Source: Tsukamurella spumae
GTDB lineage: Bacteria > Actinomycetota > Actinomycetes > Mycobacteriales > Mycobacteriaceae
Assembly (NCBI RefSeq): GCF_012396015.1
Contig: NZ_JAAXOQ010000005.1
Span: 1 to 64,000, forward strand
Direction of reading: 5' to 3'
Length of the DNA: 64,000 nucleotides
The notes under the pieces are model-generated. The model was given only the letters and a program-made list of their open reading frames with translations. It was not told the origin of the DNA and ran no database searches. The position numbers were made by a program, and so were the translations under genes. Below are positions 27,181-57,725 of this stretch, in pieces (the first letter of the stretch is position 1; each line of letters opens with the position of its first letter).

Positions 27181-27267
27181 GGCTGCCTTTCGATCGGACT
27201 CGGCGGGTACGGTTCGCCAGTTCACCACTCTGCGAACAGACGGTGAAGGTTTCGGATCGCGATGCGC

Positions 27268-27281
27268 GGAACGTGCGTTCC
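27268..27281. promoter_or_regulatory. Palindrome between ssuD and car
   Basis: GGAACG-TG-CGTTCC is a near-perfect 14-bp palindrome in the 165-base divergent region between ssuD and the carboxylic acid reductase. A wider pair, TTCACC (27221-27226) and GGTGAA (27242-27247), lies closer to ssuD. Either could bind a regulator of the sulfur operon or of car. Confidence 0.4.
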
Positions 27282-27345
27282 TACTCCCCAGTAGCTACAG
27301 TGAGACCAAGTTAGTTAGAGTCCCGTATTGATTGGGGTGTTGCTC

Positions 27346-39943: not shown

Positions 39944-41221
39944 TCAAGCGAGGCGTTCGACCAGGTCGCCGGTCCGGGCGAGCGGCGGCACCAGCAGGAT
40001 CGCGCGGTGATCCACCGCGCCTCGGAGGTGTCCGGTCGCCACGGAACCCGGGACGTGCCAGCGTCCGGCGCCGTCCGGCTCCGCGGGCAGCATCCGCCAG
40101 CGGGGGTCGGGATTCGGGTCGGCGAGTGAAACGAGGTCCTCCGGCCGGGACACCGCCCCGGTCATCGTCTCGCACACCGGGCGACCGAGTAGTGCGGTGC
40201 CGAGGAGCGCCGCCATCGGGTCGCCGCCGAGACCGAGCACGACGGCACCACCGGGCACGGTCGCCACGAGGATCGATCCGCCGGGACGCACGTCGACGCC
40301 GTCGACGAGCAGCGTGGCCCCGGCCTCTGCGAGGGCCTCACGCAGCCGGCCCGCCGCGCCGCGGCCCGTGGCACCGATGATCGCCACGACGTCCGCCTCG
40401 TCCTGCCGGAGCGCGGCGGCGAAGGCCTCCGGGGTGTCCGCGAGGTGCGGCCCGCGCGCGACGTGCGCGCCGACGCCGGCGAGGAGCGCGGCGACCGGAC
40501 CGGCGGCGGTCTCGTCCCCGGACGGATGCAGCGCGACTCGTACCGGACCGCGCAGGAGCGTCCTCGCACCGTCGACGGTGGGGCCGGGCCTCGCCGGCAG
40601 GACCGGGAGAGCGCGGCGCAGCGTTCGTCGGACGGCCGCCGGGGAGTGGCGCGCGATCCGCAGGTCCTCGGGGGTGTCGACGTCCGTGACCGCGGAGCGC
40701 AGACGGGGTGCGTCGGCGCCGACGATCGTTCGGAGCGGTCGCCCGGTGGGATCGCCGACCCCCGCGAGGGCGGAGCGCAGGGCCCGCGCGTCCCATACGG
40801 CGAGCAGGTACTGGATGCGCCCGGCGGGGTCCTCCGCGAGGGCGACCGGGGCGCCCGTTCGCGCCCGCAGCGCGGCCAGCGCACCGACGGTGCCGCGGTC
40901 CACCTCCGGCAGGTCCGCGGCGAGCACGGCGATCGTCCGCGCGGCCGCGGGAAGGGCGTCGAGCCCGGCGGCCACCGCCGCGAGCGGGCCTGCGCCGCCG
41001 GGGCTCTCGCGGGTGAGCAGGACACCGGGTGGAACGGTGCGCGGGGGCCCGACGACTACGACCGCGGCGCCCGCGACCGCATCGAGGGCGGCGTCCAACA
41101 GGCGGCGTCCGCCGACGGTCTGCTCCGGCTTGTCCAGCCCGAGGCGGCGGCCCTCGCCACCGGCCACGATAATCGCCGCGTCGATCCGAGCGGCGGGGTC
41201 GTCGTGGTCAGTAGACGTCAC
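39944..41221 (-). CDS. MobA-like guanylyltransferase fused to MoeA-like domain
   Basis: Residues 1-190 of 425 look like MobA: AAIIVAGGEGRRLGLDKPEQTVGGRRLL (nucleotide loop with the catalytic-type Lys), VLAADLPEVD, and the end VDTPEDL. Residues about 215-425 resemble a MoeA/MogA molybdopterin-binding domain: ARGPHLADTPEAFAAALR, VVAIIGATGRGA, VPGGAVVLGLGGDPMAALLG (compare MoeA LPGNPVSA), and a final barrel-like segment. Together they would insert molybdenum and add GMP for the adjacent nitrate reductase. The start is GTG, overlapping the nasC-type gene end by 14 bases. Several MoeA consensus residues are altered, so the second half may be degenerate. Confidence 0.72.
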   Translation of the reverse strand: MTSTDHDDPAARIDAAIIVAGGEGRRLGLDKPEQTVGGRRLLDAALDAVAGAAVVVVGPPRTVPPGVLLTRESPGGAGPLAAVAAGLDALPAAARTIAVLAADLPEVDRGTVGALAALRARTGAPVALAEDPAGRIQYLLAVWDARALRSALAGVGDPTGRPLRTIVGADAPRLRSAVTDVDTPEDLRIARHSPAAVRRTLRRALPVLPARPGPTVDGARTLLRGPVRVALHPSGDETAAGPVAALLAGVGAHVARGPHLADTPEAFAAALRQDEADVVAIIGATGRGAAGRLREALAEAGATLLVDGVDVRPGGSILVATVPGGAVVLGLGGDPMAALLGTALLGRPVCETMTGAVSRPEDLVSLADPNPDPRWRMLPAEPDGAGRWHVPGSVATGHLRGAVDHRAILLVPPLARTGDLVERLA

Positions 41222-44200
41222 GCACGTATCTCCGTTCGGCCGAGAGCGCTGCCACGTAGGCGTCCGCGCTGCGCGGCGCCATGTGACCGTGTTCGGCGAC
41301 GATACCGCGCAGCGCCTCGTCGACGTCGCGGGCCATTCGCGCGGCGTCGCCGCACACGTAGATGTGTGCGCCCCGCCGGATCCAGTCCCACAGTTCGGCC
41401 GCGTGTTCGCGCATGCGGTCCTGGACGTAGACCTTCTCCGCGCTGTCGCGGGAGAACGCGGTGTCCAGCCGGGTCAAGCCGCCGGACTCCTGCAGGTCCG
41501 CCAGTTCCTCGCGGTAGTAGAAGTCGGTGGCCTCGTGCTGCTCGCCGAAGAACAGCCAGTTCGGCCCGTCGTGGCCGGCCATCGCGCGGTCGTGGAGGAA
41601 TCCTCGGAACGGCGCGATGCCCGTGCCGGGCCCGATCATCACGGCCGCGACGTGGGGATCCTCCGGCGGGAGGAACGCCCGGGTGCGCTGGACGAAGACG
41701 TCGACCTCCGCGCCCGGAGCGAGCGTCGCCAGATGCGAGGAGCACACCCCGGACCGGCGGACGCCCGCGTGCTCGAACCCGACCACGGACACCGTCACCG
41801 ACACCGATGCGGGATCCTCCCGCGGGCTCGACGAGATCGAGTACAGGCGCGGCGCCAGTGGCCGGAGCAATTCCAGCCAGCGCGCGGGATCGGCCTCGAC
41901 GGGGTGCGCCGTCAGCAGGTCGGAGAGCTGGCGCCCCCAGGCCCAGTCCGCGAAGTGCGTGGGCTCGTCGATGATCGCCCGCAGATCGTCGGCGTGCGGG
42001 GAGTTCTCGGCCACGAAGCGCAGGACCTCGGGCGTGATCTGCGTGAGGTTCTTCTCGGCGAGGCCGTCGGTCTCGGGGTCGACACCCGTGCGGGCGCAGA
42101 ACTCCTCGACCACGGCGCCCGAGTTCACGGGCCACACGCCGAGCGCGTCGCCGGCGCGGTAGGACAGTGTGCCCTCCGGCACCGCGAAGGTGAAGCGCCG
42201 CACGTCCTTCGCGGATCCACGACCGGACAGTGCCTGCGACTCGCGCAGCACGGTGCGGAGCGGGCTGTTCCTCGAATAGGCCGGCGCGGATCCGGTGCCC
42301 GCGGGTCCCGCGGATGTGGTGGCGTCGATCGTGGCGTCGGCCGGGTCGAGAGCGGCGGTCACCGTCGCGAGCCAGGCGGCGGCGACGGTGGCGTAGTCGG
42401 GATCGCACGACGCGCGGGGCGCGATGCGCTGGGCGCCCAGATGCTCCAGCCGCGCGTCCAGCTTGCGCGCGAAGCCGCAGAAGTCGGCGTAGGAGGGGTC
42501 GCCGAAGCCGAGCACCGAGTAGTCGAGGTCGCCGAGGTCGCCGGGTTCGGCCGCCGCCAGCGCGTCCCACATCGCGACGCCGTTGTCGGGGGCCTCGCCG
42601 TCGCCGGTGCTGGCCACCAGGAACAGGACCGTGCCGGTCAATCGAGAGGGGGAGATCTGCTCCGCGCCGAGGACCTGCGGCGCCATCCCGGCCTCGGTCA
42701 GCGCGGCGGCGCATTCGTCCGCGTATCCCTCGGCGGTACCGGTCTGCGAGGACCACACCAGGGTGATCGTGCGCGCGGCCGCGGGCGTCGACTCCGTGCC
42801 GGACGGCGGCGGGAAGGCCGCGGGCGCAGCGTAGACGCCGGCGAGGACCCCTTCGAGCCAGGCCCGCGCGATCGGCCCGAGCGGGGCGGTCGGCGGGACG
42901 GGTGGTACGCCGCTCGGCGGTGCGGCGTTCAGCCCGGCCAGCAGGCCACCGAGAAACCCGGACTCCGCCGGGGTCAGCTCGCCGGGGCCGCTCGCGTACG
43001 CCCCGAGTGCCGCGGAGATCGGGGATCCCGTGGAGACGGCGGGGGTTCCGTCGGCGACGGAGGTGGGGGATTCCATGGGGACGGGGGTCAGTGCGACGGC
43101 GCTGACCTTGAACTCCGGTTGCAGGGACTCGGGGTCGACGGCGTCGTTGGTGATCGCGTTCACGGCGCTCTCCTCTCCGAACGTGTCGTTGAAGTGCATG
43201 GGGGCGAAGCAGACTCCGGGTCGGACGCCGTCGTCGACCTGCACCGGCAGCGTCGCACCGCCGCGTCGACTCGACACCCGTACCCGCGATCCCGTGCCGA
43301 CGCCGAGGCGCTCGGCGTCGACGGGGTGCACCTGGAGAAACGGGCCGGGGTTGAGTTTGTTGAGCTTGGCCACCTTGCCGGTCTTGGTCATCGTGTGCCA
43401 CTGGTGCGCGAGGCGGCCGGTGGTGAGGATCAGGGGGTACTCGTCGTCCGGCAGCTCCGCCGGGGGCAGGTACGGCCGGGGGAGGAACTGCGCCCGGCCC
43501 GACGGGGTGGCGAACCGCAGCCCCCGATCGGGGTCCAGGTAGCGGATCGGGTTGCGGTCGTCGCAGCCGGGCGCGGCGGGCCACTGCACCGGGCCGCGCT
43601 CGAGTCGCGCGTGGTCGACACCGCGCAGGTCCCACCCCGTGTGGGGATTGTGGAACCGCTTGAGCTCCTCGAACACGGCTGCCGCATCGGGGAAGTCGAA
43701 GGCGTCGCCGTAGCCGAGTTCGGCGGCGACGAGGCAGATGAGCTTCCAGTCCGGTAGCGCGTCGCCGGGCGGCGCCGTCACCTCGGCCGTGCGGGTGAGG
43801 TTGCGCTCGGAGTTGATCATCACGCCGGAGGTCTCGGCCCAATGGGCAGCGGGCAGAACGATATCGGCGTACCGGGCGCTTTCGCTCCCGGTGAAGGCCT
43901 CCTGCACGATCACCAGCTCCGCGGTCTTGAACGCGTCGATCACGGTGGAGCGGTTGGCCATCGACGCCACGGGGTTGGTGCAGATCACCCACGCGGCCTT
44001 GACCGAGCCGTCGGCCATCTGCCGGTACATATCGACGGTGCCCTGCCCGACCTCGGTGCGGATGGACTCGGCCGGCAGCCCCCATGCCTGCTCGGCGAAC
44101 GCCCGGTCACCGTCGACGAGCACGCTCCGCTGGCCGGGCAGGCCGGGGCCCATGTAGCCCATCTCGCGGCCGCCCATGGCGTTCGGCTGGCCGGTGAGCG

Positions 44201-45176
44201 AGAACGGGCCGGAGCCGGTGCGGCAGATCGCGCCGGTGGCGAGGTGCAGGTTGCACAGCGCAATGGTGTTCCAGGTGCCGTGGATCGACTGGTTCAGGCC
44301 CATGGTCCACAGGCTGGTCCAGTTCTCGGCCCCGCCGAGCAGCTCGGCGACCCGGGTGACGTCGGCCGGGTCGAGGCCGGTGATCTCGGCGACGCGGTCG
44401 AGGGGGTAGTCCTCGAGGAACGAGGGCATCGCCTCCCAGCCCTCGGTGTGCGCATCGATGAAGCCCTCGTCGATGTGGCCCCGCTCGACCAGCAACGCGA
44501 GGAGACCGTTGAGCAGCGCGAGATCGGTACCCGGCCGGATCGGCAGATGCAGGTCTGCCTTCGCCGCCGTGGCGGTGCGCCTGGGGTCGACCACGATCAG
44601 TTTCGCGCCGGCCCTGACCCGATCCATGAGCCGCAGGAACAGGATCGGGTGGCAGTCGGCCATGTTGGCGCCCATCACTAGGAACACGTCCGCGTGGTCG
44701 AGGTCGTCGTAACTGCCGGGCGGGCCGTCCGCGCCGAGCGACTGCTTGTAGCCGGTTCCCGCGCTGGCCATGCACAGCCGCGAGTTCGACTCGATCCACC
44801 GCGTGCGCAGGTAGCCCTTGGCGAGCTTCGTCGCCAGGTACTGGGCCTCCAGCGTCATCTGTCCGCTCACGTACAGCGCGATGGCGTCCGGACCGTGCTC
44901 GTCGCGGATCCGGCGCAGGCGCCGCCCGGTGGCCGCGATCGCGTCCTGCAGTTCGACGGTGCCGCGCGCCGCCTCCCGGTTCTCGCGCAGCTCGGCCCGG
45001 GTCTGCCGGCCGCCCGCCGTGAGCAGGTCGACGGTGGTGCTGCCCTTGGTGCACAGCCGCCCCCGGTTCGCGGGGTGGTCCTTCGTACCGAAGGACCTCG
45101 TCACGGCGCCGTCCGCGACCTGCAGCGTGAGCCCGCAGCCCACCCCGCAGTACCCGCACACAGTCTCGACGTCCAT
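41208..45176 (-). CDS. Assimilatory nitrate reductase fused to CysJ-type flavoprotein
   Basis: This 1322-residue fusion starts with a molybdopterin oxidoreductase at about 1-710: a [4Fe-4S] ligand set Cys7, Cys10, Cys14 and Cys42, then NSRLCMASAGTGYKQSLGADGPPGS and the C-terminal dinucleotide-binding barrel. A Pro/Gly/Ala linker (about 710-800) leads to a flavodoxin domain (SSQTGTAEGYADE near 805). FAD and NADPH domains follow (RLYSISSSPRED near 1110; GPGTGIAPFRGF near 1180), ending in YVRDVY. It should take electrons straight from NADPH to nitrate with no separate reductase. The same fusion is annotated in mycobacteria and rhodococci (NasN-type). A GlnR-like box lies upstream. Confidence 0.92.
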   Translation of the reverse strand: MDVETVCGYCGVGCGLTLQVADGAVTRSFGTKDHPANRGRLCTKGSTTVDLLTAGGRQTRAELRENREAARGTVELQDAIAATGRRLRRIRDEHGPDAIALYVSGQMTLEAQYLATKLAKGYLRTRWIESNSRLCMASAGTGYKQSLGADGPPGSYDDLDHADVFLVMGANMADCHPILFLRLMDRVRAGAKLIVVDPRRTATAAKADLHLPIRPGTDLALLNGLLALLVERGHIDEGFIDAHTEGWEAMPSFLEDYPLDRVAEITGLDPADVTRVAELLGGAENWTSLWTMGLNQSIHGTWNTIALCNLHLATGAICRTGSGPFSLTGQPNAMGGREMGYMGPGLPGQRSVLVDGDRAFAEQAWGLPAESIRTEVGQGTVDMYRQMADGSVKAAWVICTNPVASMANRSTVIDAFKTAELVIVQEAFTGSESARYADIVLPAAHWAETSGVMINSERNLTRTAEVTAPPGDALPDWKLICLVAAELGYGDAFDFPDAAAVFEELKRFHNPHTGWDLRGVDHARLERGPVQWPAAPGCDDRNPIRYLDPDRGLRFATPSGRAQFLPRPYLPPAELPDDEYPLILTTGRLAHQWHTMTKTGKVAKLNKLNPGPFLQVHPVDAERLGVGTGSRVRVSSRRGGATLPVQVDDGVRPGVCFAPMHFNDTFGEESAVNAITNDAVDPESLQPEFKVSAVALTPVPMESPTSVADGTPAVSTGSPISAALGAYASGPGELTPAESGFLGGLLAGLNAAPPSGVPPVPPTAPLGPIARAWLEGVLAGVYAAPAAFPPPSGTESTPAAARTITLVWSSQTGTAEGYADECAAALTEAGMAPQVLGAEQISPSRLTGTVLFLVASTGDGEAPDNGVAMWDALAAAEPGDLGDLDYSVLGFGDPSYADFCGFARKLDARLEHLGAQRIAPRASCDPDYATVAAAWLATVTAALDPADATIDATTSAGPAGTGSAPAYSRNSPLRTVLRESQALSGRGSAKDVRRFTFAVPEGTLSYRAGDALGVWPVNSGAVVEEFCARTGVDPETDGLAEKNLTQITPEVLRFVAENSPHADDLRAIIDEPTHFADWAWGRQLSDLLTAHPVEADPARWLELLRPLAPRLYSISSSPREDPASVSVTVSVVGFEHAGVRRSGVCSSHLATLAPGAEVDVFVQRTRAFLPPEDPHVAAVMIGPGTGIAPFRGFLHDRAMAGHDGPNWLFFGEQHEATDFYYREELADLQESGGLTRLDTAFSRDSAEKVYVQDRMREHAAELWDWIRRGAHIYVCGDAARMARDVDEALRGIVAEHGHMAPRSADAYVAALSAERRYVRDVY

Positions 45177-45309: not shown

Positions 45310-46185
45310 TCAGCCGAGCCTGCGGCCGATGCGCCAGGCACCGAGCGCCACGAACACCGCGAACAGCGCCGCGAACACCAGCCACAGGACCCATTCCGAG
45401 ACCTGGGCGGTGGCGAGGTGGGGGAGGAGCCCGTACTCGTCGCGGACGGTAGCGCGCGCCTGTTCGGACGATCCGGTGAGCGCGTCGAGCGGGGCGCGCG
45501 TGAACGGTGCCCGCATGAGCGTCGCGGCCTGATTGAGCGGGAGCAGGTTCATGAAGGTCACGACGCCGCTGGGCAGGGCCCCGACGGTGATGTACGCGCC
45601 CGCCAGGAAGCCGCCCGCGGTGCCCACGATCGTCGCGACCGAGGTGAACACGCCGTTGGAGGCGATGAAGGTCACCACGAGGCTCCAGATCGCGGAGAAC
45701 ACCAGGCAGAAGCCGACCAACTGCGCCAGGGCCTGCACGAAGGCGCCCGCCGACAGCGCGGCCGAGTAGACGATCCCGAGGTAGACCTCCGCGAGGACCA
45801 GGACCGCCGCGCTGAGCGCGACCGAGACGACGAACGCGCCGAGGAGATAGCTCAGGATCATCTGCAGCCTGCTGATCGGCGAGACCAGGAAGTCGCGGAA
45901 GACGTTCCCCACCCGATCGTTGACGAACACCACCAGCGCGGACAGGCTGGTCGTCGCGGTGGTGATCATGACCAGGTTGGCGATCACCCAGGAGTAGACG
46001 AAGGCGTCGACGTCGTCGCCGTGGGCGCCGGGCAGGGACTTCTGCAGGGCGTCGGTCTGGACGCCGCCGAGGAAGGCGGAGAACAGGACGAACAGGATGA
46101 TCGGCGACAGCAGCGAGAAGAACACCGCGGGCGGATCCCGGAAGAACACGACGACATTGCGCCGGGTCAGGTGGTACAGCATCAT
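45310..46185 (-). CDS. DrrB-like ABC-2 permease of the PKS-NRPS operon
   Basis: This 291-residue ABC-2 permease starts MMLYHLTRRNVVVFFRDPPAVFFSLLSPIILFVLF. It has about six helices and the exporter-type segments RVGNVFRDFLVSPISRLQMILSYLLGAFVVS and AGGFLAGAYITVGALPSGVVTFMNLLPLNQAATLMR. This is the family of DrrB and other antibiotic or lipid exporters. The ATG overlaps the ATPase stop by 4 bases. As the last gene of a four-gene operon with PKS and NRPS genes it likely exports their product. Confidence 0.85.
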   Translation of the reverse strand: MMLYHLTRRNVVVFFRDPPAVFFSLLSPIILFVLFSAFLGGVQTDALQKSLPGAHGDDVDAFVYSWVIANLVMITTATTSLSALVVFVNDRVGNVFRDFLVSPISRLQMILSYLLGAFVVSVALSAAVLVLAEVYLGIVYSAALSAGAFVQALAQLVGFCLVFSAIWSLVVTFIASNGVFTSVATIVGTAGGFLAGAYITVGALPSGVVTFMNLLPLNQAATLMRAPFTRAPLDALTGSSEQARATVRDEYGLLPHLATAQVSEWVLWLVFAALFAVFVALGAWRIGRRLG

Positions 46186-47417
46186 CGCCCCCCGCCTCGT
46201 GTGATGTTCAGGAAGACGTCGTCCATCGTTCCGTGCCGGAACTCGAAATCGGCGATGTCGGCGTCGAACTCGCGCAGCAGGGCCATGGCCTCCCGGCTCG
46301 ATTTGACGACGATCCGACGTTCCGCCCCGGCACGTGCGGCGCGCGATCCGAACCGCTCGTCGAACCGCCGGGGATCGCGCAGAGTCACCCGCAGCTCGTC
46401 CTTCGCGTGCGCGGCGCGCAGTTCCGTCGGCGTACCCGAGGTCACGATCCGACCGTGGTCGATGATCGCGATCCGGTCGGCTCGTTCGGCCTCCTCCATG
46501 TAGTGCGTGGTGAGGAAGACGGTGAGCCGCAGCCGCTTCTGCAGGTCCAGGATCGTCGACCAGACGCGGTCGCGCGAGTCCGGATCGAGGCCGGTCGTCG
46601 GCTCGTCGAGGAACAGGATGCGGGGCTGGTGGATGAGCGCCCGGGCGATGTCCGCGCGGCGCTTCTGCCCGCCGGACAGCGTCTTGTACCGGCGCCCCAG
46701 GAACTCCTCCAGATCGAGCAGCGACGACAGCCCCGCGATCCGCTCCTTCGCGGTGTTCCGGTCGACGCCGTAGAACGTGGCGCGCAGTGCCAGGTTCTCG
46801 CGGACGGACAGGGCGGGGTCCAGTAGGGACTCCTGGAAGACCACGCCGATCGACCGGCGGATGTCGAGGTCCTGCGCGCCCACCTCCATTCCGGCGACGT
46901 GGATCGTGCCGGACGTGGTCGACTTCAATGTCGTGATGCAGCTGATCGTGGTCGACTTGCCGGCGCCGTTCGTGCCGAGGAAGGCGAACGTGCTCCCGCC
47001 GGCGACGTCGAACGACACGCCGTCCACGGCCCGGACGTCGCCGTAACTCTTGACCAGGTTCCGGACGCTGATCACCGGTGGCCCCGCCGGCCCGGGCGCC
47101 GGTCCGCGCACGGGTGCGGGGGGTGCGGCGGGAGCCGGAGCGGGCAGGGGTACCGGGGCCGGGGGACGGGCGGCCGGGGGCGCCTGGACAGCCGGCCGGG
47201 CCGCGGGGGCTGCCGGTGCTGCCGGGCGGGCCGCTGGGGTCGCCGGCCGGGCCGCCGGGAGTGCCGGCCTCGCCGCGGGCAGCGACGGGCGGGAGGCCCG
47301 GGTACGGATCGGCTGCGAGACGTTCGGGTCGACCTGCTGCACGGGCGTCCTGCGGCGCCGTTCCCGGAGCGTGGTCGGCGTCCGCTCCACGGGGCCGCGA
47401 GGTGTCGTTGCGCTCAT
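46182..47417 (-). CDS. DrrA-like ABC ATPase with Pro/Ala-rich N-terminal extension
   Basis: The 411-residue protein has a complete ATPase at about 115-345, with GTNGAGKST, LSGGQKRRADIARALI and ILFLDEPTTGLDP, and a DrrA-type C-terminal domain. Unusually, the first 110 residues are a basic then Pro/Ala-rich extension built of repeats such as PAARPA and APAP; the DNA repeats at about 47088-47290 simply encode it. Such tails are flexible and often contact membrane or partner proteins. The ATG overlaps the NRPS stop (ATGA). It powers the permease at 45310. Confidence 0.85.
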   Translation of the reverse strand: MSATTPRGPVERTPTTLRERRRRTPVQQVDPNVSQPIRTRASRPSLPAARPALPAARPATPAARPAAPAAPAARPAVQAPPAARPPAPVPLPAPAPAAPPAPVRGPAPGPAGPPVISVRNLVKSYGDVRAVDGVSFDVAGGSTFAFLGTNGAGKSTTISCITTLKSTTSGTIHVAGMEVGAQDLDIRRSIGVVFQESLLDPALSVRENLALRATFYGVDRNTAKERIAGLSSLLDLEEFLGRRYKTLSGGQKRRADIARALIHQPRILFLDEPTTGLDPDSRDRVWSTILDLQKRLRLTVFLTTHYMEEAERADRIAIIDHGRIVTSGTPTELRAAHAKDELRVTLRDPRRFDERFGSRAARAGAERRIVVKSSREAMALLREFDADIADFEFRHGTMDDVFLNITRGGGR

Positions 47418-50400
47418 GACGCGACGCTATCCGGCAGGTCCCGGGACGGCGGCGGCGGGAGGTATCCGCGGTCGATGAACCACTCGAAGTAGCGCCGGAG
47501 GAGCGCATCGTCGATCGGCGGGCACGTGATCGCGGTGCCCGCCAGCCCTTCCCGCACGTTGGCGTCGTCGAATCGCGCATCGGGCATGTTGTCCAACGGG
47601 GTCGCGGACAGGAACGGGGCCAGCGCGGCGGCGGTCTCGTCGCCCTCGCGCTCGGCGAGTTCGGCGGCGCGCTCGCACCACTGCCCGAAGGGCAGCTGCT
47701 CGCCGTCGTATCCGAAGTCGGACATCCAGCGCACGAGGTCCCCCACCGCGACGGTCTCGGGCGAGACGACGTGGAAGGTGCGGCCGGCGAGGTCCTGGCG
47801 GCCGGCGAGGCGCGCGATGGCGCCCACCACGTAGTCGACGGGGGTGATGTCGGTCGACATGTCCATGACCGGCGCCGCGCCCAGCGCGACGCCCAGTTTG
47901 ATGGTCTGCCACAGGAAGTCCGACTGCTGGCAGGCGCCGGTGCGGCTGTGACCGGCGACGCGGCCGGTGCGGTAGACGTAGGTGGGGACGCCGCGCGAGC
48001 GCGCCTCGAAGACCAGCTGCTCGCCGACCCACTTGGACTGGGTGTAGCCGAAGGTGAACCGCGGATCCTGGACGGGGCTGCGATCGTCCTCCGCGAAGAC
48101 CGTGTCCTGCGGGTAGGAGAACCGCGAGAAGACATAGGTCGTCGAGACGAAGTGCACGGGCTTGACCGGGCCGTCGCAGGCCAGGGCGAGCACGTGCACC
48201 GTGCCGTCGACGTTCGCGGACTTCAGCGTGGAATAGGGGCGCAGGAAGTTCACGTCGGCACCGCAGTGCATGATGCCGTCCGCGGTTTCGGCCAGCTCGG
48301 CCCAGACCTCCTCGCTCAGCCCGAGTCGCTCGCGCGTCAGGTCGCCCGGCACCGCGACGATCCGGGCCGCGTAGGCATCGTCCCAGATCCCGTAGCCGCG
48401 CATCGCCTCCCGGATCCGCGCCGAGCCCTCCTCGCGGGACTCGGCACGGACCAGGCAGTGCATGGTCGCCGCGGAGGTCTGCAGCAGCTCGGCCAGGAGG
48501 AACGATCCGACGAATCCGGTGGCACCGGTGACGAACAGGTTCCGCGGGTCGGTCGCGCTGCGCACGGGTGCGCCCGGCGTGGGCCGGATCTCCTCGGGGA
48601 GGACCACCTCGTCGGCCAGCAGGAGCGGGCTCTCGAAGCCGGCGCCGCCGTGCTCGAGGATCGCGGCGAGCCGCTCGATCGTGAGCTCACCGGCGAACAG
48701 TGCCGGCAGCGGCACCACCCGGCCGAGCTTCTCCCGCACGCGGAAGACCAGCTTGGTCGCGAGGAGCGAGTGGCCGCCGAGCAGGAAGAAATCGTCGCGG
48801 ACGCCCGGTGCCGCCTCCAGCGACAGCAGATCCGACCAGATCGCGACGAGGTCGCGCTCCAGGTCGGTGCGGGGGGCGACGTACTCGACGCCGCTCGCGG
48901 CCGCCAGCGCGACCGGTGCGCCGCCGCGGGCCGCGAGTGCCTTGCGATCGATCTTGCGGTTCGGGGTGAGGGGGAAGGCGTCCACCACTGCGATCGCGGT
49001 CGGGACCATGTACGGCGGCAGGGTCTCCCGCAGTCCGCCCAGCAGGGCGCCGGTGTCGCCGAGTTCCTCGGCCGCGCACTCGAGGTAGGCGGTGATGGCG
49101 GTCCCGGCGGCGTCGACCGTGGCGATCGCGCGCACGCCCGGCAGCGCCGTCTCCAGCGCGCTCTCGATCTCGCCCAGCTCGACGCGGAAGCCGCGAACCT
49201 TGACCTGGGTGTCGATGCGGCCGCCGAACTCGATCCGGCCGTCGCGGAACCGGCGCACGAGATCGCCGGTGCGGTAGGCCCGGATCGGATGTGCTCCGGA
49301 CAGTTCCACGAATCGGTCGGCGGTCAGATCGGGCCGCTCGTGGTACCCGAGCGTCACGCCGTCGCCGGTGATGCACAGCTCGCCGAAGACACCATCGGGG
49401 ACGGGTGCGGCGGCGGCGTCGGCGACCACGATCCCGGTGCCGCGGATCGGGTGGCCGATCGGGATCGCGCCCGCCGAGACATCGTCGCGGCTGACGCGGT
49501 GCACCGTCGACCAGATGGTGGTCTCGGTGGGGCCGTACATGTTCCACAGCTCGTCCGTGCAGTCCAGGAGGCGGCCCGCGAGGACGGCGGGCATCGCCTC
49601 ACCTCCGCACAGTGCTCGGAGCCCGCGCGTTCCGGTCCACCCCGCGTCGAGCAGCAGGTGCCAGGTGGTGGGCGTGGCCTGCATGACCGTCACGGCGTGC
49701 TCGTCGAGGAGCGCCGCGAGCCGGTCGCCGTCGCGGGCGTCGTCACCGTCGGCGATCACGACCCGCGCCCCGGCGGCGAGCGGGAGCAACAGCTCGAGGA
49801 TCGCGATGTCGAACGACGGGCTCGTGACGGCCAGCAGCGTGTCCGAGGGGGCCAGGCCCGGCTCGGCGCGCATCGCCTCGAGGAAGGTGACCACGTTGCG
49901 GTGCGAGACGCGAACGCCCTTCGGGCGTCCCGTGGATCCGGAGGTGTAGAGCAGGTACGCCGTCCGGGTCGCGGGATCGAGGCCCGACGGTGCCGGGGCC
50001 GGCCCGGCGGGCGCGTCGGTCACGTCGATCCAGGGCAGGTCGAGGCCCGGTACCTCGGCCAGGTGCTCGGCGGTGGTGATCAGCGCGGGGACGCCCGCGT
50101 CCGCGCAGATGAAGGCGAGGCGCTCGGCCGGGTAGGCGGGGTCGAGCGGCACGAAGGAGAATCCCGCGCGCAGGGTGGCGAGCATGGCGACGACCACCTC
50201 CGCCGACCGGGGCAGGAGCAGGCCCACCGGGGTCTGCGGCGGGGCGTCGATCCGCTCGGCGATCCGGGCGGCGAGGCGCTCGACGCGGGCCGCCAACTCC
50301 GCGTGGGTGATCCGCTCGGTCGCCGTGACGATCGCGGTGCGGTCCGCGCCGTCGGTCCCCGCGGCGAGCACGTACTCGTCGAGCGCGGTCGTCGCCGGCT

Positions 50401-51850
50401 GGGGCGCCGGCGCGGCGACGGCGAGCGGGGTGGTGCTCAGTGGCAAGGTCGCGAGCTCGCCGCCCCCCGCGGTTCCGGTGCCCGTGAACGCGTCCAGCAC
50501 CGCGAGGAAGCCGTCGATCAGTGCATCGGCGCTCTCCTGGTCGAACAGGTCGGCTGCGACGTCGAGCGTGCCGGTCATCGTCGTCGGCGTCGTGGTGATG
50601 TTGAGCAGCACCTCGAACTTGGCGCAGCCGTTGTACAGGTCGCGCATCCGCATCTCGGGCGCGCTGCGATCCTCCTGCATGTTCAGGACCGCCTGGAACA
50701 GTGGCGGGCGGGCGGGGTCGCGGCCGAGGTCGAGCGCCGCCAGCACCCGGTCGAAGCGCGCGTCCTGGTGCCGGAAGCCCTCGCGGACCTCTCCGTTCAC
50801 CTGTGCCAGCAGCCCCTCGACGGTCTCGCCCTCGCGGAGCGCGATCGGCAGCGCGAGCGTGTTGAGGAACGGTCCGATCACCTGCTCGGTGCCCGGCTGG
50901 GAGCGCTGCGCCACGGGGACGCCGATCACGACGCCGTCCTGCGCCGACCACCGGGACAGGACGGTCGCGTACGCGCTGAGCACCGTGACGAACGGCGTGA
51001 CACCGTGCTCGGCGCTGAACGCGCGCACGGCGGCGGCGCGGTCGGCGGTGAGCGTGAACTCGGTGCGGCGCCCGCGGTAACTCTGGCGGGCGGGGCGGGG
51101 CCGGTCGGTCGGCAGGGTCAGAGCGGCGGGCGCACCGTCGAGCCGCTCCGTCCAGTAGGCGATGTCCGCAGCATCGGCGTCCTCCTCCTCGCGTTCGCGC
51201 TCCCACAGCGCCACATCGGCGTACTGGAAGGGGAGTTCGGGGAGCTGCTGGAGCCGGCCGACGAGCCTGCCGGTCGCGAGTCGGCCCAGCTCGGCGAAGA
51301 GGATGCCGGTGGAGTAGCCGTCGGCCACCATGTGGTGCAGCGTGATCTGCACCCAGGTATCGCCGGATTCGGTGCGCGCGAGCGTCGCCCGCAGCAGTGG
51401 GTCCCGCGTGATGTCGAAGGGAGTGCGGGCGTCCTCGGCGAACCGCGCCCACATCCGCTGCTCGTCCACGCCGTCGAGCAGCGCGACCTCGGGCCGAACG
51501 GCCGGGTCGATCCGCCCCACCGGCTCACCGTCCTCGATGCCGAACCGGGTGCGCAGCACCGGATGCCGCTCGATCACCTCGGCCAGGCAGTCGGTGAAGA
51601 CCGAGTGCGGGACGTCGATCGGGAGCCGTGCCACGCCGGACATCACATGCATGCTCGTGCCGGGGTGGAACTGCTCGAGGAACCACATGTTCTCCTGGGT
51701 GGCGGAGAGCGGGACCGCGTCCGCGTCCTGCACGCGGGGCCTGATCGGCGGTGCCGCGGGCTCCGTCGACGGTGCCCGTCCCAGGCGTGCCAGGAGGGCG
51801 TTCCGCTGCGCGGGGCTCAGCGCCGCGAGGCGGTCTTCGATCTCGGTCAT
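47414..51850 (-). CDS. NRPS module C-A-PCP-R with glycine-type A domain
   Basis: This 1478-residue synthetase contains a condensation domain (about 45-475) with the active HHMVADG at 172-178. An adenylation domain (about 485-1000) has LLYTSGSTGRPKG, NMYGPTETTIW, YRTGDLVRRF and NRKIDRKAL. A carrier has Ser1028 in LGGHSLLATKL. A terminal thioester reductase (about 1105-1478) has VTGATGFVG and YTQSKW. Reading the ten Stachelhaus positions by alignment to GrsA gives DILQLGMIWK, one residue from the glycine code DILQLGLIWK. The product would leave as an aldehyde or alcohol. The ATG overlaps the PKS stop by 4 bases, with GGAGG upstream. Confidence 0.9.
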   Translation of the reverse strand: MTEIEDRLAALSPAQRNALLARLGRAPSTEPAAPPIRPRVQDADAVPLSATQENMWFLEQFHPGTSMHVMSGVARLPIDVPHSVFTDCLAEVIERHPVLRTRFGIEDGEPVGRIDPAVRPEVALLDGVDEQRMWARFAEDARTPFDITRDPLLRATLARTESGDTWVQITLHHMVADGYSTGILFAELGRLATGRLVGRLQQLPELPFQYADVALWEREREEEDADAADIAYWTERLDGAPAALTLPTDRPRPARQSYRGRRTEFTLTADRAAAVRAFSAEHGVTPFVTVLSAYATVLSRWSAQDGVVIGVPVAQRSQPGTEQVIGPFLNTLALPIALREGETVEGLLAQVNGEVREGFRHQDARFDRVLAALDLGRDPARPPLFQAVLNMQEDRSAPEMRMRDLYNGCAKFEVLLNITTTPTTMTGTLDVAADLFDQESADALIDGFLAVLDAFTGTGTAGGGELATLPLSTTPLAVAAPAPQPATTALDEYVLAAGTDGADRTAIVTATERITHAELAARVERLAARIAERIDAPPQTPVGLLLPRSAEVVVAMLATLRAGFSFVPLDPAYPAERLAFICADAGVPALITTAEHLAEVPGLDLPWIDVTDAPAGPAPAPSGLDPATRTAYLLYTSGSTGRPKGVRVSHRNVVTFLEAMRAEPGLAPSDTLLAVTSPSFDIAILELLLPLAAGARVVIADGDDARDGDRLAALLDEHAVTVMQATPTTWHLLLDAGWTGTRGLRALCGGEAMPAVLAGRLLDCTDELWNMYGPTETTIWSTVHRVSRDDVSAGAIPIGHPIRGTGIVVADAAAAPVPDGVFGELCITGDGVTLGYHERPDLTADRFVELSGAHPIRAYRTGDLVRRFRDGRIEFGGRIDTQVKVRGFRVELGEIESALETALPGVRAIATVDAAGTAITAYLECAAEELGDTGALLGGLRETLPPYMVPTAIAVVDAFPLTPNRKIDRKALAARGGAPVALAAASGVEYVAPRTDLERDLVAIWSDLLSLEAAPGVRDDFFLLGGHSLLATKLVFRVREKLGRVVPLPALFAGELTIERLAAILEHGGAGFESPLLLADEVVLPEEIRPTPGAPVRSATDPRNLFVTGATGFVGSFLLAELLQTSAATMHCLVRAESREEGSARIREAMRGYGIWDDAYAARIVAVPGDLTRERLGLSEEVWAELAETADGIMHCGADVNFLRPYSTLKSANVDGTVHVLALACDGPVKPVHFVSTTYVFSRFSYPQDTVFAEDDRSPVQDPRFTFGYTQSKWVGEQLVFEARSRGVPTYVYRTGRVAGHSRTGACQQSDFLWQTIKLGVALGAAPVMDMSTDITPVDYVVGAIARLAGRQDLAGRTFHVVSPETVAVGDLVRWMSDFGYDGEQLPFGQWCERAAELAEREGDETAAALAPFLSATPLDNMPDARFDDANVREGLAGTAITCPPIDDALLRRYFEWFIDRGYLPPPPSRDLPDSVAS

Positions 51851-54800
51851 CGGGGGCCTCCGGCATTCGGTTCGGTGGTCTCTGACTGGGCGAGCAGGGC
51901 GGCGACGGCGTCGTCGTCGAGGTCTGCGAGGAGCGCGGCGAGGTCGTCGACCTCGGCCTCCTCCTCCGCATCGATCCCCGCGTCCTCGGCGTCGAGGCCG
52001 AGCACGGAGAGGAGCTCGGCGGCGATCGTCGCCACCGTCGCGTTGTCGAGGAGGAAGGCGATCGACGGTGCCGCCCCGAACTGCTGTTCCACACGGATCC
52101 GCAGCTCGGTGGCGAGCATCGAGTCGACGCCGAGGCGGCCGAGCGGCTCGTCGTCCGGGATGTGCTCCTCCGCCATCCGCAGTACGCGGGAGACGGTCAG
52201 CCGCACCCCGTCGACGGCGATCGGCGCGCGGTCGCCCGCGGGAACGGCATCGAGCCGGTCGAGGATCGACTCCCCGTCGTGGTCGCCGACGTCCTCGCCG
52301 CCGCCGAGGTGGGCGACGAGGAGCGGGGTGAGCGCGTAGCTCTCGATCACGGTGGGCCAGTGGGCCGAGACCACGCCCTGTTGGACCTCGCCGGATCCGA
52401 GGAGCTCGGCGAGCAGGGTCATGCCCGTCTCCGGGTCGATGAGGTCGATGCCGCGCTGCCCGTACAGCTCGCGCAGGCCCAGGCTCGCGATCATCCCGGC
52501 GTCCCACGGGCCCCAGTTGATCGACAGCGCGGGCAGGCCCTGCGCCCGGCGGTAGTGCGCGAGCGTGTCGAGGAACGCGTTCCCGGCGGCGTAGTTGCCC
52601 TGCCCGGGCGACGGGATCACCGCCGAGATCGACGAGAACAGGGTGAAGAAGTCGAGCGGCTCGCCGGCCGTAGCGCGGTGCAGTGCCCAGGCGCCCAGCA
52701 CCTTGGGCCGCACCACGCGGTCGACCTGCTCCGGCGTCATCCGCACCAGGATCTGGTCCTCCACCGCGCCGGCGGAGTGGATCACGCCGCGGATCGCGGG
52801 GACGCCGTGCGCCCGCAGCTCCGCGATGCTCGCCGCCAGGGCGGAGGCGTCCGTCACGTCGACGGTCACGATGTGCACCGTCGCGCCCGCCGCCTCCGCG
52901 GCGCGTACGGCCGCCACCGCATCACGCTGCGCGGCGTCGGTCAGCGCGTCCCAGGTCTCCCGGGGCGGCAGCCCTGCGCGGCTGGTCACGATCAGGTGCC
53001 CCGCGCCCCGTTCGGCGAGCGCGACCAGCACCAGCCGGCCGAGCGCGCCGAGGCCGCCGGTGACGATGTACGCGCCGTCGGCGCGCATCCGGGCGGGGAT
53101 CCGCCCGCCGGAGCGGGCCGACGGGTGGAGCCGGGCGACCAGCCGCGCACCGTCGCGGAACGCCACCTGGTCCTCCTCCGAGCCCGTCACGCCGAGCTCG
53201 TCGAAGAGCAGCTCCGCGCTTCCGTCGGGGTCCCGCGGGTCGAGGTCGACGAGGCGCGAGTGCAGCGCCATCAGCTCGTGATGCAGGACCCGTCCGACGC
53301 CGAGCAGGGTGGATTGCAGCAACCCCGCCTCGGACACGCCGCCCGCGACGGGCTGCGCGCCGTTCGTGACCAGGAAGGTCGGCGCCGCGATACCGCGGCG
53401 GTCGAGCTCGGCGGCCAGGTGCACCACGGACAGGACGGCGTCGTGCGCGGTCCACCGCAGCGGATCGGTCCCGTCGGTCCGGGCATCGAGCGAGCGGAGG
53501 TGGACGATGCCGCGCAGCCCGTCCGCGGGCACCGCACGGTCCAGCGCCGCGGCGAGGGCCTCCCGGTCGGCGGGCGCCGGCCCGCCGTCGACGGTGTCCT
53601 CCCGCAGCAGGACCGGTGTGCCGCCGGCCGCGGTCAGGCGGGCGGCGAGACGGTCCGCGACGCCCGTGCCGTCCGCGAGGAGCAACCAGGTGCCCTCGAC
53701 GGATCCGCGGTCCACGGCGTCGACGACCTGGGGCTCCCACGCCTGCTCGTAGACCCAGTCCGTACCCACGCGCTGCGGCGTCGCGCCGTCGTCGAGGATC
53801 CGGACCGTGAAGCCCTCGACCTCGGCCACGACGCGGCCGGAATCGTCGGCCAGCACCACGTCGCCGGCGATCGAGTCGGTGCCGGACGAGGGCCGCGCCG
53901 TCGCGCGCGCGACGAGCGGGCCGAGCGGGGCGTCCGGGCGCGCGTGGATCACGACGCGGTCGACACCGACGGGGATGAGCTTGGCGTCCGCGGCGCCCTG
54001 CAGTGCCAGCGGCAGCAGCAGCTGGAAGGCGGCGTCGAGGACGCTCGGCTCGAGGATCGGTGCCCGGTCCGCGACCGGCTCGGCGGCGACCGCGCGGACC
54101 CGGGCGGTCGCGACCCCGTCGCCGATCGTAACGTCGTGCAGCAGGCGGTAGGCGGGCCCGTACGCGAAGCCGGCCTCGTCGAAGGCCCGGTACAGCGCGT
54201 CCTCGCTCGTCGGCGTTCCCGCGACGGGCGCGTCGTCGAGGTGTGGAGCGATCGACGGCGCGGGGCGCAGGGTCGCCGTCGCGTGCCGCGCCCACCGCCC
54301 GGCCCCGGGGACCTTGCCGTGGATCGTGATCCGGCCGGCATCGGCGTCGAGGGCGGTGTCCACGAGGTAGGTCCCACCGCCGCCGTGCACGAGGGCCGTC
54401 TCGAAGGCGACCTCCTCCAGCGTGCAGGCCGTGGCGCCGTACTCGTCGCGCGCGACCTCGGCCGCGATCTCCAGGAAACCCGCGCCCGGGAACAGGACGG
54501 AGCCGTGCACGACGTGATCGCGGAGGGAGCGCGGCGCGGTGCCGTCGAGCAGACGGCGCCACGCGGGCGTGGCACCGTCGGACCGGTTACCGAGGTAGGG
54601 CTCGACCGTGTCGGCGAGGCGCTCCCGACGGCCGACGGCGCTCTCGGCCCAGAACCGGTCGGCCTGCCACGGGTACGCGGGCAGCGACCGCATGGGCGCG
54701 CGGGGACTGAGCGGCGAGAGATCGACCTCGACGCCGCGGACCCAGAGGTCCGCGAGCGCGCCCGCGAAGGACTCGGAGTCGGCGCCGTCGCGGCGCAGCG

Positions 54801-57369
54801 AGGCGGTCGTCCCGACGCTCCGCTCCTGAGCGGCGGCGGCGTCCGTGATCGCCCGGCCCAGCACCGCGGTCGGGCCGATCTCGAGGAAGGTGACGGCGCC
54901 GTCGTCGAGCATCGCCTCGGTCGCGGCCCCGAACAGGACGGGTCGGCGGATGTTGCGCCACCAGTACTCGGCGTCGTGCGGCTGCGAGCCGTCCGCCGGG
55001 ACCCGGGCCCCGGTCACCGTCGAATAGAGCGGGACCGTGGGCGCCGCGGGGGCGAGTCCGGACAGGCACGTGCGGACCTCGGCTTCGAGGGGGTCCATGG
55101 CGCTGCTGTGGTACGGGACATCGCCCGGGACCAGGCGCGCGAAGACACCGTCGGCGGTGAGCCGGGCGGCGAGCGCCTCCAGGACCTGCAGCGCGCCCAC
55201 CAGCGCGATCGACTCGGGAGCGTTGAGGGCGGCGAACTCGAGCTCGCCGCGCTGGACCTCGGGGAGCGCGCGGGCGTCCGCCTCGCCGAGCGCGACGGCC
55301 AGCAACCGGCCCCGGCCGCTCGCGGTGTGCTGCAACCGTGCCCGATGGGCGATCACGGTGACCGCATCGTCGAAGGTCAGGGCGCCCGCCTCCAGCACGG
55401 CTGCGACCTCGCCCGCGCTGTGTCCGACGATCAGGTCGGGGCGGACCCCGAACGACTCCCACAGCCGGGAGAGCGCGTACTGCACGGCGAAGTTCGCGAT
55501 CTGCGCGACCTCGGACTCGGCCATGCGGGAGTCCGCCTCGGAGGCGAGCAGCGCGTCGGTGAGCGACCAGCCGGTGAGCGGGAGCAGAGCCGCGTCGCAG
55601 CGGTCGATCGCGGTGCGGAACACCGAGTTGTGCTGCAGCAGACCGCGGGCCATGCCCCACCACTGCGGGCCCATCCCGGTGTAGACGAAGGCGAGCGGCC
55701 TCGCGTCCGCGAGCGCGGAACCGGTCCGCACGGACGGATGCGGCGCGCCCTCGGCAGCGGCGCGCAGTGCCTCCGCGGCGCGCGCGGCGTCCCCGGCGAC
55801 CAGTGCGAGCCGCGCGGACCGGTGGGCACTCCGACGGTGCGCCAGTGCCTGCGCCAGCGGCGCGACCCCGTCGGACTCGACGAGCCCGGCGTAGGCGCCG
55901 GCGAGGGTCGCGAGGGAGGCGTCGCTGCGGGCCGCGATCGGGAGCAGCAGGGCGATGCCGTCGCGCTCCGGGGCGTCGCCGCCGGTGGGGGCGGACTCTG
56001 CGGTGGGGGCGGGCCCCGCGGTCGGTGCGGGCGCCGATTCGAGGATCGCATGGGCGTTGGTGCCGCCGAAGCCGAACGAGTTCACGCCCGCCCGGAGGAC
56101 GCCGTCGGGGCGCAGCGCCGCGGGCTCCGTGGCGATCCGGACCCGGAGATCGTCGAGGTCGATGGCCGGGTTGAGGGTCTCCAGGTGCAGGTGTCGGGGG
56201 ACTCGGCGGTGGGCCAGGGTGAGTGCGGACTTGATGAAGCCGACGACGCCCGCGGCGGCCTCCAGATGCCCGAGGTTCGTCTTCACCGAGCCGATGACCA
56301 AGGGCTGGGCGGCGGGGCGCTCGCCCCGGTAGACCCGGCCGATCGCGTTCGCCTCGATCGGGTCGCCGACGGGCGTGCCCGTACCGTGCGCCTCGACGTA
56401 GTCGACGCTCTCCGGGGCGACTCCGGCACCGGCCAGCGCGGCCTCGATGGCGCGCTCCTGGCTGTCGCCGTTCGGCACGGTGATGCCGTTCGTCCGTCCG
56501 TCCTGGCTCACGGCCGTGCCGAGCACCGTGGCGTAGACCCGATCGCCGTCCGCGAGGGCGCGGGAGAGCGGCTTGAGCACGACCAGCGCCGCGCCCTCGC
56601 CGCGGACGTACCCGTTGGCCGCCGCGTCGAACGCGCGGGACGTGCTGGTGGGGGAGAGGAAGCCGCCCGTGGACGCGGCGACGGTGAAGTTCGGGCTGAG
56701 CATCAGGTTGACGCCGCCGGCGAGCGCCAGCTCACTCTCGCCGCTCCAGATCGACTGGCATGCAAGATGAATCGCGACCAGTGAGGACGAGCACGCCGTG
56801 TCGATCGACATGCTCGGCCCGAGCAGGTCGAAGGCGTGCGAGATGCGGTTGGACAGCATCGTCATCACCACGCCGGTCGCGGTGTGCGCGACCACCGTCG
56901 GCGGCTCCGCGGCGGAGGAGGAGAACTGCAGTTGGCTGTAGTCGAGGGTGAATCCGCCGGTGAACACGGAGGTCCGTGAACCCGCGAGGTCCTCGGCGCG
57001 CAGTCCGGCGTCCTCGAAGGACTCCCACGCGACCTCCAGCAGGAGCCGCTGCTGCGGGTCCATCGAGTGCGCCTCGATGGGGGAGATCCCGAAGAACGCG
57101 GGGTCGAACTCGTCGACCGGGTCGGTCAGGAAGCCGCCGCGGCGGACGCGGCTCTTGCCCGGGGTGCGGTCGGCCTCGTAATAGCGATCCGCGCTCCAGC
57201 GCTCCGCGGGGATGTCGACGATGGCATCGCGGCCCTCGTCGAGCAGGTCCCAGAAGTCCTCGGCGGAGCGCACCCCGCCCGGAAGGCGGCAACCGATGCC
57301 CACGATCGCGATCGGCTCGCGCCGGTCCGTTCCCCGCGGACCGCTGCTGTTCACTGAAGCGTCTCTCAC
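51847..57369 (-). CDS. Type I PKS, KS-AT-DH-KR-ACP
   Basis: This 1840-residue single-module synthase has a ketosynthase with Cys193 in DTACSSS, EAHGTGTPVGDP and KTNLGHLEAAAG. The acyltransferase has GHSAGE near 650 and the unusual selectivity segment VPYHSSAMDP (neither HAFH nor YASH). The dehydratase has HxxxGxxxxP as HVVHGSVLFP near 950 and a DAAFQ motif. The ketoreductase has GGLGALG near 1436 and an intact Ser/Tyr/Asn set. The ACP has LGVDSMLATEL near 1750. An acidic 45-residue tail follows the ACP, probably docking to the NRPS. There is no loading module, no enoylreductase and no thioesterase. The start is GTG at 57369 after AAGGGAG. Confidence 0.92.
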   Translation of the reverse strand: MRDASVNSSGPRGTDRREPIAIVGIGCRLPGGVRSAEDFWDLLDEGRDAIVDIPAERWSADRYYEADRTPGKSRVRRGGFLTDPVDEFDPAFFGISPIEAHSMDPQQRLLLEVAWESFEDAGLRAEDLAGSRTSVFTGGFTLDYSQLQFSSSAAEPPTVVAHTATGVVMTMLSNRISHAFDLLGPSMSIDTACSSSLVAIHLACQSIWSGESELALAGGVNLMLSPNFTVAASTGGFLSPTSTSRAFDAAANGYVRGEGAALVVLKPLSRALADGDRVYATVLGTAVSQDGRTNGITVPNGDSQERAIEAALAGAGVAPESVDYVEAHGTGTPVGDPIEANAIGRVYRGERPAAQPLVIGSVKTNLGHLEAAAGVVGFIKSALTLAHRRVPRHLHLETLNPAIDLDDLRVRIATEPAALRPDGVLRAGVNSFGFGGTNAHAILESAPAPTAGPAPTAESAPTGGDAPERDGIALLLPIAARSDASLATLAGAYAGLVESDGVAPLAQALAHRRSAHRSARLALVAGDAARAAEALRAAAEGAPHPSVRTGSALADARPLAFVYTGMGPQWWGMARGLLQHNSVFRTAIDRCDAALLPLTGWSLTDALLASEADSRMAESEVAQIANFAVQYALSRLWESFGVRPDLIVGHSAGEVAAVLEAGALTFDDAVTVIAHRARLQHTASGRGRLLAVALGEADARALPEVQRGELEFAALNAPESIALVGALQVLEALAARLTADGVFARLVPGDVPYHSSAMDPLEAEVRTCLSGLAPAAPTVPLYSTVTGARVPADGSQPHDAEYWWRNIRRPVLFGAATEAMLDDGAVTFLEIGPTAVLGRAITDAAAAQERSVGTTASLRRDGADSESFAGALADLWVRGVEVDLSPLSPRAPMRSLPAYPWQADRFWAESAVGRRERLADTVEPYLGNRSDGATPAWRRLLDGTAPRSLRDHVVHGSVLFPGAGFLEIAAEVARDEYGATACTLEEVAFETALVHGGGGTYLVDTALDADAGRITIHGKVPGAGRWARHATATLRPAPSIAPHLDDAPVAGTPTSEDALYRAFDEAGFAYGPAYRLLHDVTIGDGVATARVRAVAAEPVADRAPILEPSVLDAAFQLLLPLALQGAADAKLIPVGVDRVVIHARPDAPLGPLVARATARPSSGTDSIAGDVVLADDSGRVVAEVEGFTVRILDDGATPQRVGTDWVYEQAWEPQVVDAVDRGSVEGTWLLLADGTGVADRLAARLTAAGGTPVLLREDTVDGGPAPADREALAAALDRAVPADGLRGIVHLRSLDARTDGTDPLRWTAHDAVLSVVHLAAELDRRGIAAPTFLVTNGAQPVAGGVSEAGLLQSTLLGVGRVLHHELMALHSRLVDLDPRDPDGSAELLFDELGVTGSEEDQVAFRDGARLVARLHPSARSGGRIPARMRADGAYIVTGGLGALGRLVLVALAERGAGHLIVTSRAGLPPRETWDALTDAAQRDAVAAVRAAEAAGATVHIVTVDVTDASALAASIAELRAHGVPAIRGVIHSAGAVEDQILVRMTPEQVDRVVRPKVLGAWALHRATAGEPLDFFTLFSSISAVIPSPGQGNYAAGNAFLDTLAHYRRAQGLPALSINWGPWDAGMIASLGLRELYGQRGIDLIDPETGMTLLAELLGSGEVQQGVVSAHWPTVIESYALTPLLVAHLGGGEDVGDHDGESILDRLDAVPAGDRAPIAVDGVRLTVSRVLRMAEEHIPDDEPLGRLGVDSMLATELRIRVEQQFGAAPSIAFLLDNATVATIAAELLSVLGLDAEDAGIDAEEEAEVDDLAALLADLDDDAVAALLAQSETTEPNAGGPR

Positions 57370-57725
57370 CGCTGTACTCCCTTGAATGTCCCCTCGCCGG
57401 CGCCGGCGGCTTCTTCGCCGTGCCCGGTCCTCATGGTGGATGTCGCTTCTTAAGCCCCACCTGTTTCACGCTTGGCGCAGCGGTCCGGTCGGGGGGCTGC
57501 GCCGGATAACGCCGGTTCACGTGCGCGAGATCATGATATCCGCTCGATGAAGAAGGGGTGATGTGATGGTCTGGATCTTATGGGTGGATGTCCGGTGATA
57601 ATAATTGTGCCAGTACGGTAAATCGCGGCACCGGGTGGCTTACATGTCGCGTCGATAGTCTTACAGGCAGTCGTTTGCCCCCGGCACACCGGTGGGTCGT
57701 TTTCGCGTGAGACAGGGCAGGAACT
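57370..57725. other. Divergent promoter region, PKS operon and ettA
   Basis: This 356-base gap is the longest without a gene. It is distinctly more AT-rich than the rest, especially 57525-57670 (for example gatcatgatatcc, gataataattgtgcc). It must hold the promoter for the PKS operon (leftward) and for ettA (rightward). GGCAGG lies just before the ettA GTG. No convincing palindrome or riboswitch fold was recognised. Confidence 0.6.

Follow-up and report, generated by a model that had tools for sequence, protein, structure and literature searches.

A compact PKS-NRPS-reductase operon of Tsukamurella with a glycine signature and kinship to polycyclic tetramate macrolactam synthetases

Polycyclic tetramate macrolactam (PTM) synthetases, such as IkaA, the HSAF polyketide synthase-nonribosomal peptide synthetase (PKS-NRPS) and SkoA, contain a single PKS module of ketosynthase, acyltransferase, dehydratase, ketoreductase and acyl carrier protein (KS-AT-DH-KR-ACP), followed by condensation, adenylation and peptidyl carrier domains (C-A-PCP), with no loading module, in one fused protein ending in a thioesterase (TE). 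Their A domain activates ornithine, both amines of which are acylated, and their clusters are flanked by PhyDH/ADH/SD genes. In the myxalamid pathway, the polyene chain of a multimodular PKS is amidated with one amino acid by MxaA (C-A-PCP-R) and released by its reductase (R) domain, alanine thus becoming alaninol. In linear gramicidin, a pentadecapeptide made by NRPSs without a PKS, the terminal glycine is reduced towards ethanolamine by LgrD and the separate aldoreductase LgrE. The R-domain class and the role of LgrE have been described, and the R domain of MxaA belongs to the alcohol-forming class (PMC2835699). The single PTM PKS module acts iteratively and yields polyene chains (PMC8399814; PMC11724479). 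In this work, a stretch of 64,000 nt from Tsukamurella spumae (NZ_JAAXOQ010000005.1, positions 1 to 64,000; hereafter the window) is analysed, in which a four-gene operon of 12 kb encodes a PKS, an R-terminated NRPS and a transporter of the ATP-binding cassette (ABC) type. By analogy, this operon would work as a PTM PKS coupled to a glycine-reductase terminus of the myxalamid/gramicidin type, and is a member of neither group, because ornithine, TE and tailoring genes are absent on the PTM side and the alanine or peptide substrates differ on the other.

All four genes lie on the minus strand. The PKS (57369-51847, 1840 aa) is followed by the NRPS (51850-47414, 1478 aa), a DrrA-like ABC ATPase (47417-46182, 411 aa) and a DrrB-like ABC-2 permease (46185-45310, 291 aa), as delimited by open reading frames and Pfam (for the NRPS also NCBIfam; for the permease ABC2_membrane). 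Three 4-bp ATGA overlaps join them, with the junction sequences CCCGATGACC, GTCATGAGC and GCGATGATG. An earlier sequence-only reading of this DNA had described these overlaps, and its account is exact to the base. The domain orders it had given were also borne out by Pfam, i.e., ketoacyl-synt, Acyl_transf_1, PKS_DH_N/PS-DH, KR and PP-binding in the PKS, and Condensation, AMP-binding, PP-binding and NAD_binding_4 (R) in the NRPS. Pfam found no enoyl reductase (ER) in the PKS. The operon logic then proposed is supported, and the window indeed holds no loading module, TE, phosphopantetheinyl transferase or tailoring gene. The missing transferase is no gap, since three ACPS-family matches elsewhere in the genome, one of them adjoining the FAS-I (type I fatty acid synthase) gene, can supply phosphopantetheine.

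The amino acid joined to the polyketide chain can be read from the A domain. Aligned to GrsA, all 10 orthologues show the signature DILQLGMIWK. GrsA itself served as control and gave the expected DAWTIAAIC with K517; its core sequence was the sole non-database input and was confirmed by this code. In a survey of 2051 A domains, DILQLGMIWK is assigned to glycine-activating domains (PMC12283262), and due to this identity the amino acid of the NRPS is taken as glycine. The earlier expectation of a polyketide chain joined to one amino acid is therefore supported and can be refined to glycine. The A codes of further R-terminated NRPSs in the family differ from this one.

The NRPS has the C-A-PCP-R order of the reductive-release NRPSs of the MxaA/MxcG type, and its NAD_binding_4 R domain retains the Thr, Tyr and Lys residues, in support of the predicted reductive release. 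The R domain scores 330 bits against TIGR01746 (cut-off 213), and its best PDB match is MxaA (4u7w). Compared with MxaA, the operon has glycine and a single PKS module instead of a multimodular PKS. The myxochelin enzyme MxcG is also C-A-PCP-R, and its model NF038078 aligns over almost the full length of the NRPS, at 670 bits, far below the cut-off of 2300; MxcG uses lysine and acylates it iteratively.

Outside the genus, the nearest relatives of the PKS are stand-alone PKSs from another genus of the family and proteins of ~3100-3280 aa. The latter are identified as PTM synthetases, because their domain order (KS-AT-DH-KR-ACP-C-A-PCP-TE by Pfam in two of them), an ornithine-type code and their neighbours (genes for a sterol desaturase and FAD oxidoreductases in two others) match the published anatomy. 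The code, DVGEIGSIDK, which we take to be that of ornithine, was read for one of five PTM proteins, as the motif pattern missed the other four. The stand-alone group comprises five KS-AT-DH-KR-ACP proteins of ~1850 aa; in the three loci inspected, the PKS adjoins an FAD enzyme matching Trp_halogenase/lycopene cyclase, forming an uncharacterised halogenase-like/PKS pair.

The KS, AT and KR domains are nearest to those of the iterative polyene PKSs of PTM synthetases and of the stand-alone PKSs. In the KS tree, the Tsukamurella sequences group with PTM, mycocerosic acid synthase (MAS)-like and stand-alone PKSs (support 98/97), and the modular KSs of Streptomyces and mycobacteria fall outside this clade. 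The AT is nearest to the PTM AT (48%) and shares with it the signature GMGPQW/VPYHS, whereas MAS-like ATs have GQGPQW/CACHS; malonyl-CoA is thus the likely extender. Since no ER is present, every full cycle leaves a double bond, and iteration would lead to a polyene. The sequence-only reading had proposed an acyl chain with an alpha,beta double bond. The unsaturation agrees with our results, but a single extension probably underestimates the product and, given the PTM-type iterative kinship, a polyene is likelier.

Several observations weigh against this interpretation. The whole PKS is only ~41% identical to PTM enzymes, and the best-supported sister of its KS (94/94) is the uncharacterised stand-alone group, not PTM. 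The KS clade also contains MAS-like enzymes, whose starting material is a preformed fatty acyl chain, and this bears on the starter and the number of cycles. The reference sample is small and was picked by similarity. Among the catalytic domains, the DH has diverged most, with 27-35% identity to relatives, and the R-domain sequence is compatible with two- and four-electron reduction alike.

The position of the MAS-like enzymes also gives room for a lipid-like product, an N-enoyl-glycinal or N-enoyl-ethanolamine, if the PKS performs one or a few extensions of a fatty acyl-CoA supplied by FAS-I. MAS-like enzymes use fatty acyl starters, DrrAB-type exporters export mycobacterial lipids, the mycolic-acid host has FAS-I and the operon has no loading module. 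Such a product is nevertheless unlikely in view of the AT, which is of PTM type in signature and nearest relative, and of the lack of a FAAL/FadD gene in the operon, whereas MAS-like loci have an adjoining adenylation-type gene. MAS and Pks2 are iterative PKSs of the same KS clade and the best PDB match over KS-AT-DH; they possess an ER and a methylmalonyl-type AT (CACHS), in contrast to the operon PKS (no ER; VPYHS). Membership in the MAS/lipid PKSs was rejected on these two differences.

An aromatic product was considered as well. Partially reducing synthases of the 6-methylsalicylate type have the same domain order and size, and the halogenase-like genes beside the sister stand-alone PKSs would suit an aroyl-glycinal or aroyl-ethanolamine. 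This origin is very improbable, as the KS, AT and KR relatives found are of PTM/MAS type, in a comparison set without a named 6-methylsalicylate synthase reference.

Hand-over of the chain between the two proteins seems to involve their termini. Alignment of the termini of 10 orthologues showed a conserved acidic helix at the PKS C-terminus (51850..51935, minus strand, within AEVDDLAALLADLDDDAVAALLA), as well as a conserved LAALSPAQRRALLARL helix at the NRPS N-terminus MTEIEDRLAALSPAQRRALLARLGKAP. Judged from their sequences, the two helices are a probable docking pair.

Based on the above, the operon probably directs a pathway in which an iterative, malonyl-specific PKS provides a polyenoyl chain to a glycyl-PCP in trans, followed by R-domain release and ABC export. 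In detail, the stand-alone PKS without ER, using malonyl-CoA, would iterate and build a polyenoyl chain on its own ACP, with acetyl- or acyl-CoA as the predicted starter and a chain length that is equally a matter of prediction. The matching terminal helices would guide the chain in trans to the NRPS, whose C domain would acylate the glycine loaded by the A domain of the same protein. With NAD(P)H as cofactor, the R domain would then reductively free the N-polyenoyl-glycyl thioester, a two-electron reduction giving N-polyenoyl-aminoacetaldehyde (N-polyenoyl-glycinal) and a four-electron reduction N-polyenoyl-ethanolamine. Finally, the DrrAB-type pair would export the product.

A cyclic variant of this pathway would arise if the beta-keto group of the last cycle were retained, as in PTM synthesis, and the released aldehyde closed by Knoevenagel condensation to a 3-polyenoyl-pyrrolin-2-one. 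Tetramate closure needs a retained beta-keto group, and fungal PKS-NRPS-R systems are a precedent for Knoevenagel closure. The R motif of the operon is intact, and the iterative PKSs of PTM pathways feed tetramate closure (PMC8399814). Against the cyclic variant, the KR/DH programming of the last cycle is not legible from sequence and the operon has no cyclisation gene, which makes it a rather doubtful outcome. Taking linear and cyclic products together, the broader proposal is put forward tentatively: a PTM-type iterative PKS may have been uncoupled from ornithine and TE and rewired to a glycine-reductase NRPS, with export of polyenoyl-ethanolamides (N-acylethanolamine-like) or 3-polyenoyl-pyrrolin-2-ones.

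The enzymes of the operon have kept their catalytic motifs. The PKS has the KS Cys and both KS His, the AT Ser/His, the DH His and Asp, the KR Ser/Tyr and the ACP Ser, kept across the 10 orthologues. In the NRPS, the HHxxxDG of the C domain, the A core motifs, the PCP Ser and the Rossmann motif, Thr and YxxxK of the R domain are found in all orthologues compared. Overall, the catalytic motifs are invariant or near-invariant in the 10 orthologues. Inactive KS, C or R domains, which would have spoken against the earlier proposal, were looked for by alignment and all three have intact motifs. With median dN/dS values per domain of ~0.11-0.26, the operon is, on these estimates, under purifying selection. 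Besides the operon PKS, a KS search of the host genome brought up just two large synthases of type I, a PKS of Pks13 size and FAS-I, and hence, by this search, no second PKS module is on hand.

The transporter genes are DrrAB-like only, because both score below the curated cut-offs (ATPase, TIGR01188, 269.8 bits against 312.45; permease, TIGR01247, 28.5 bits against 223.05). The ATPase matches ABC_tran and DrrA1-3_C in Pfam, carries a variable Pro/Ala-rich N-terminal extension of ~110 aa, and its Walker A/B and signature motifs are intact in 7 out of 7 sequences. The permease is 89% identical among orthologues on average (minimum 82%).

Absence of tailoring, as noted for the window, does not extend to all species. 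Of the genomes in which the 3′ end is readable, two (G015 and one more) carry a gene for an F420-type LLM oxidoreductase ~20 bp after drrB, absent from the operon of the window; the G015 protein is identical to that of Tsukamurella tyrosinosolvens NCTC13231. In the locus of the latter (L009), the LLM oxidoreductase and a fibronectin-III gene (26684-27622 and 27664-28380) lie between drrB and the nitrate reductase gene nas, and two further loci are similar. As a candidate tailoring step, the LLM oxidoreductase might finish or alter the product in the species carrying it.

In every search made, the operon was seen in Tsukamurella alone. A near full-length NRPS orthologue exists in 10 of the 16 genomes of the genus (79-87% identity, or the window's own), with T. 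tyrosinosolvens at 87%; in an eleventh, the orthologue is spread over several frames. The next-best NRPS match among 201 genomes of the family is ~39% identical, and among 297 genomes of the class, KS identity outside the genus reaches 59% at most. A scan of genome contigs with exact short peptides, which reaches close relatives only, matched five named Tsukamurella loci. The four genes and their order are shared by other Tsukamurella species, which have them at this very locus, with ~70-90% protein identity; this recurrence, together with the low dN/dS, shows that the arrangement is not due to chance.

Wherever both sides are readable, ettA and nas bracket the operon. In three operon-free species the two genes are closely spaced (292 bp in one, ~1.6 kb in two), and the operon is thus a clean island, gained or lost. 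Its dS to most species (0.44-0.56) resembles that of the adjoining glutamate dehydrogenase (GDH) gene (0.45-0.50), which fits a long residence in the genus, as far as synonymous divergence can tell. On the contrary, in G006 the dS of nas is 0.27 versus 0.70 for the operon. The PKS and NRPS of G006 and G013 are 74-79% identical to those of the window, with nas at 91% in G006 and ettA at 99% in G013. Such a divergent operon beside closer flanks suggests that species have exchanged the operon.

Insertions occur next to the operon. In T. tyrosinosolvens NCTC13231, a phage-like element (integrase, capsid gene and regulators; L009, 4026-13914) lies between ettA and the PKS, and G002, G013 and G015 have 10-12 kb at the same spot, i.e., insertions of similar size. 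The NCTC13231 contig (NZ_LR134452.1) is labelled 'plasmid 10' and carries ettA, NAD-glutamate dehydrogenase, nirB/nirD and nitrate reductase. A plasmid origin was rejected, as ettA, GDH and nirB, present in this record, border the operon in other species, on chromosomes or contigs; the record is probably a mislabelled chromosome fragment. Here the PKS frame is interrupted near residue 560, and the PKS of G015, with the identical LLM protein, is intact. In Tsukamurella sp. PLM1, PKS, NRPS, nas and GDH are each in several frames. A broken cluster was rejected: the motifs are all intact, and the PLM1 breaks, also affecting nas and GDH, look like assembly error.

In the window, ettA is the divergent upstream neighbour of the PKS (minus strand PKS, plus strand ettA), and the region between them (57370..57725) would contain the promoter. 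A putative ribosome-binding AAGGGAG precedes the GTG start of the PKS. Downstream, ~134 bp past the permease stop, the next same-strand gene (41208-45176, minus strand, 1322 aa) encodes an assimilatory nitrate reductase in one polypeptide, with a CysJ-like flavoprotein as fusion partner. As both flanking genes (nas and ettA) are housekeeping genes, the ends of the operon are natural. The host genome is 4.46 Mb and the contig that contains the window is 188 kb; a window scan gave one tRNA as the sole Rfam match.

With regard to the described systems, the operon thus shares with PTM synthetases the KS clade and the AT signature, and differs from them in its separate NRPS gene with an R domain, its own ABC exporter and its neighbours (ettA/GDH and nitrate reductase). 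It was rejected as a PTM cluster because of the glycine code, the R domain in place of TE and the lack of tailoring genes. A separate compact PKS/NRPS reductive-release operon is present on a plasmid of Deinococcus sp. QL22 (L111, 5917-19458), with a PKS that has an ER, a C-A-nitroreductase-like protein, a PCP-R protein and a class III aminotransferase.

Paper searches, with MIBiG outside their reach, found no described pathway with the same gene set; nor did they find a Tsukamurella or N-acylethanolamine pathway of this kind, or a comparable polyketide reported from the genus. To our knowledge, polyenoyl-ethanolamide or pyrrolin-2-one products have not been described for Tsukamurella or for any PTM-type iterative PKS. 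The operon is a clean, conserved orphan pathway for which a specific product is predicted, and it has no feature beyond known enzymology. Tsukamurella are opportunistic, mycolic-acid-containing actinobacteria, and the PTMs, the closest relatives, are antifungal. If the proposal is true, a PTM iterative PKS module would have been re-used with another amino acid and another release step, and N-polyenoyl-ethanolamines or pyrrolinones would have a bacterial pathway in this genus. The operon represents a minimal natural PKS-NRPS with a predictable product, kept through most of the genus and small enough for expression and quick resolution.

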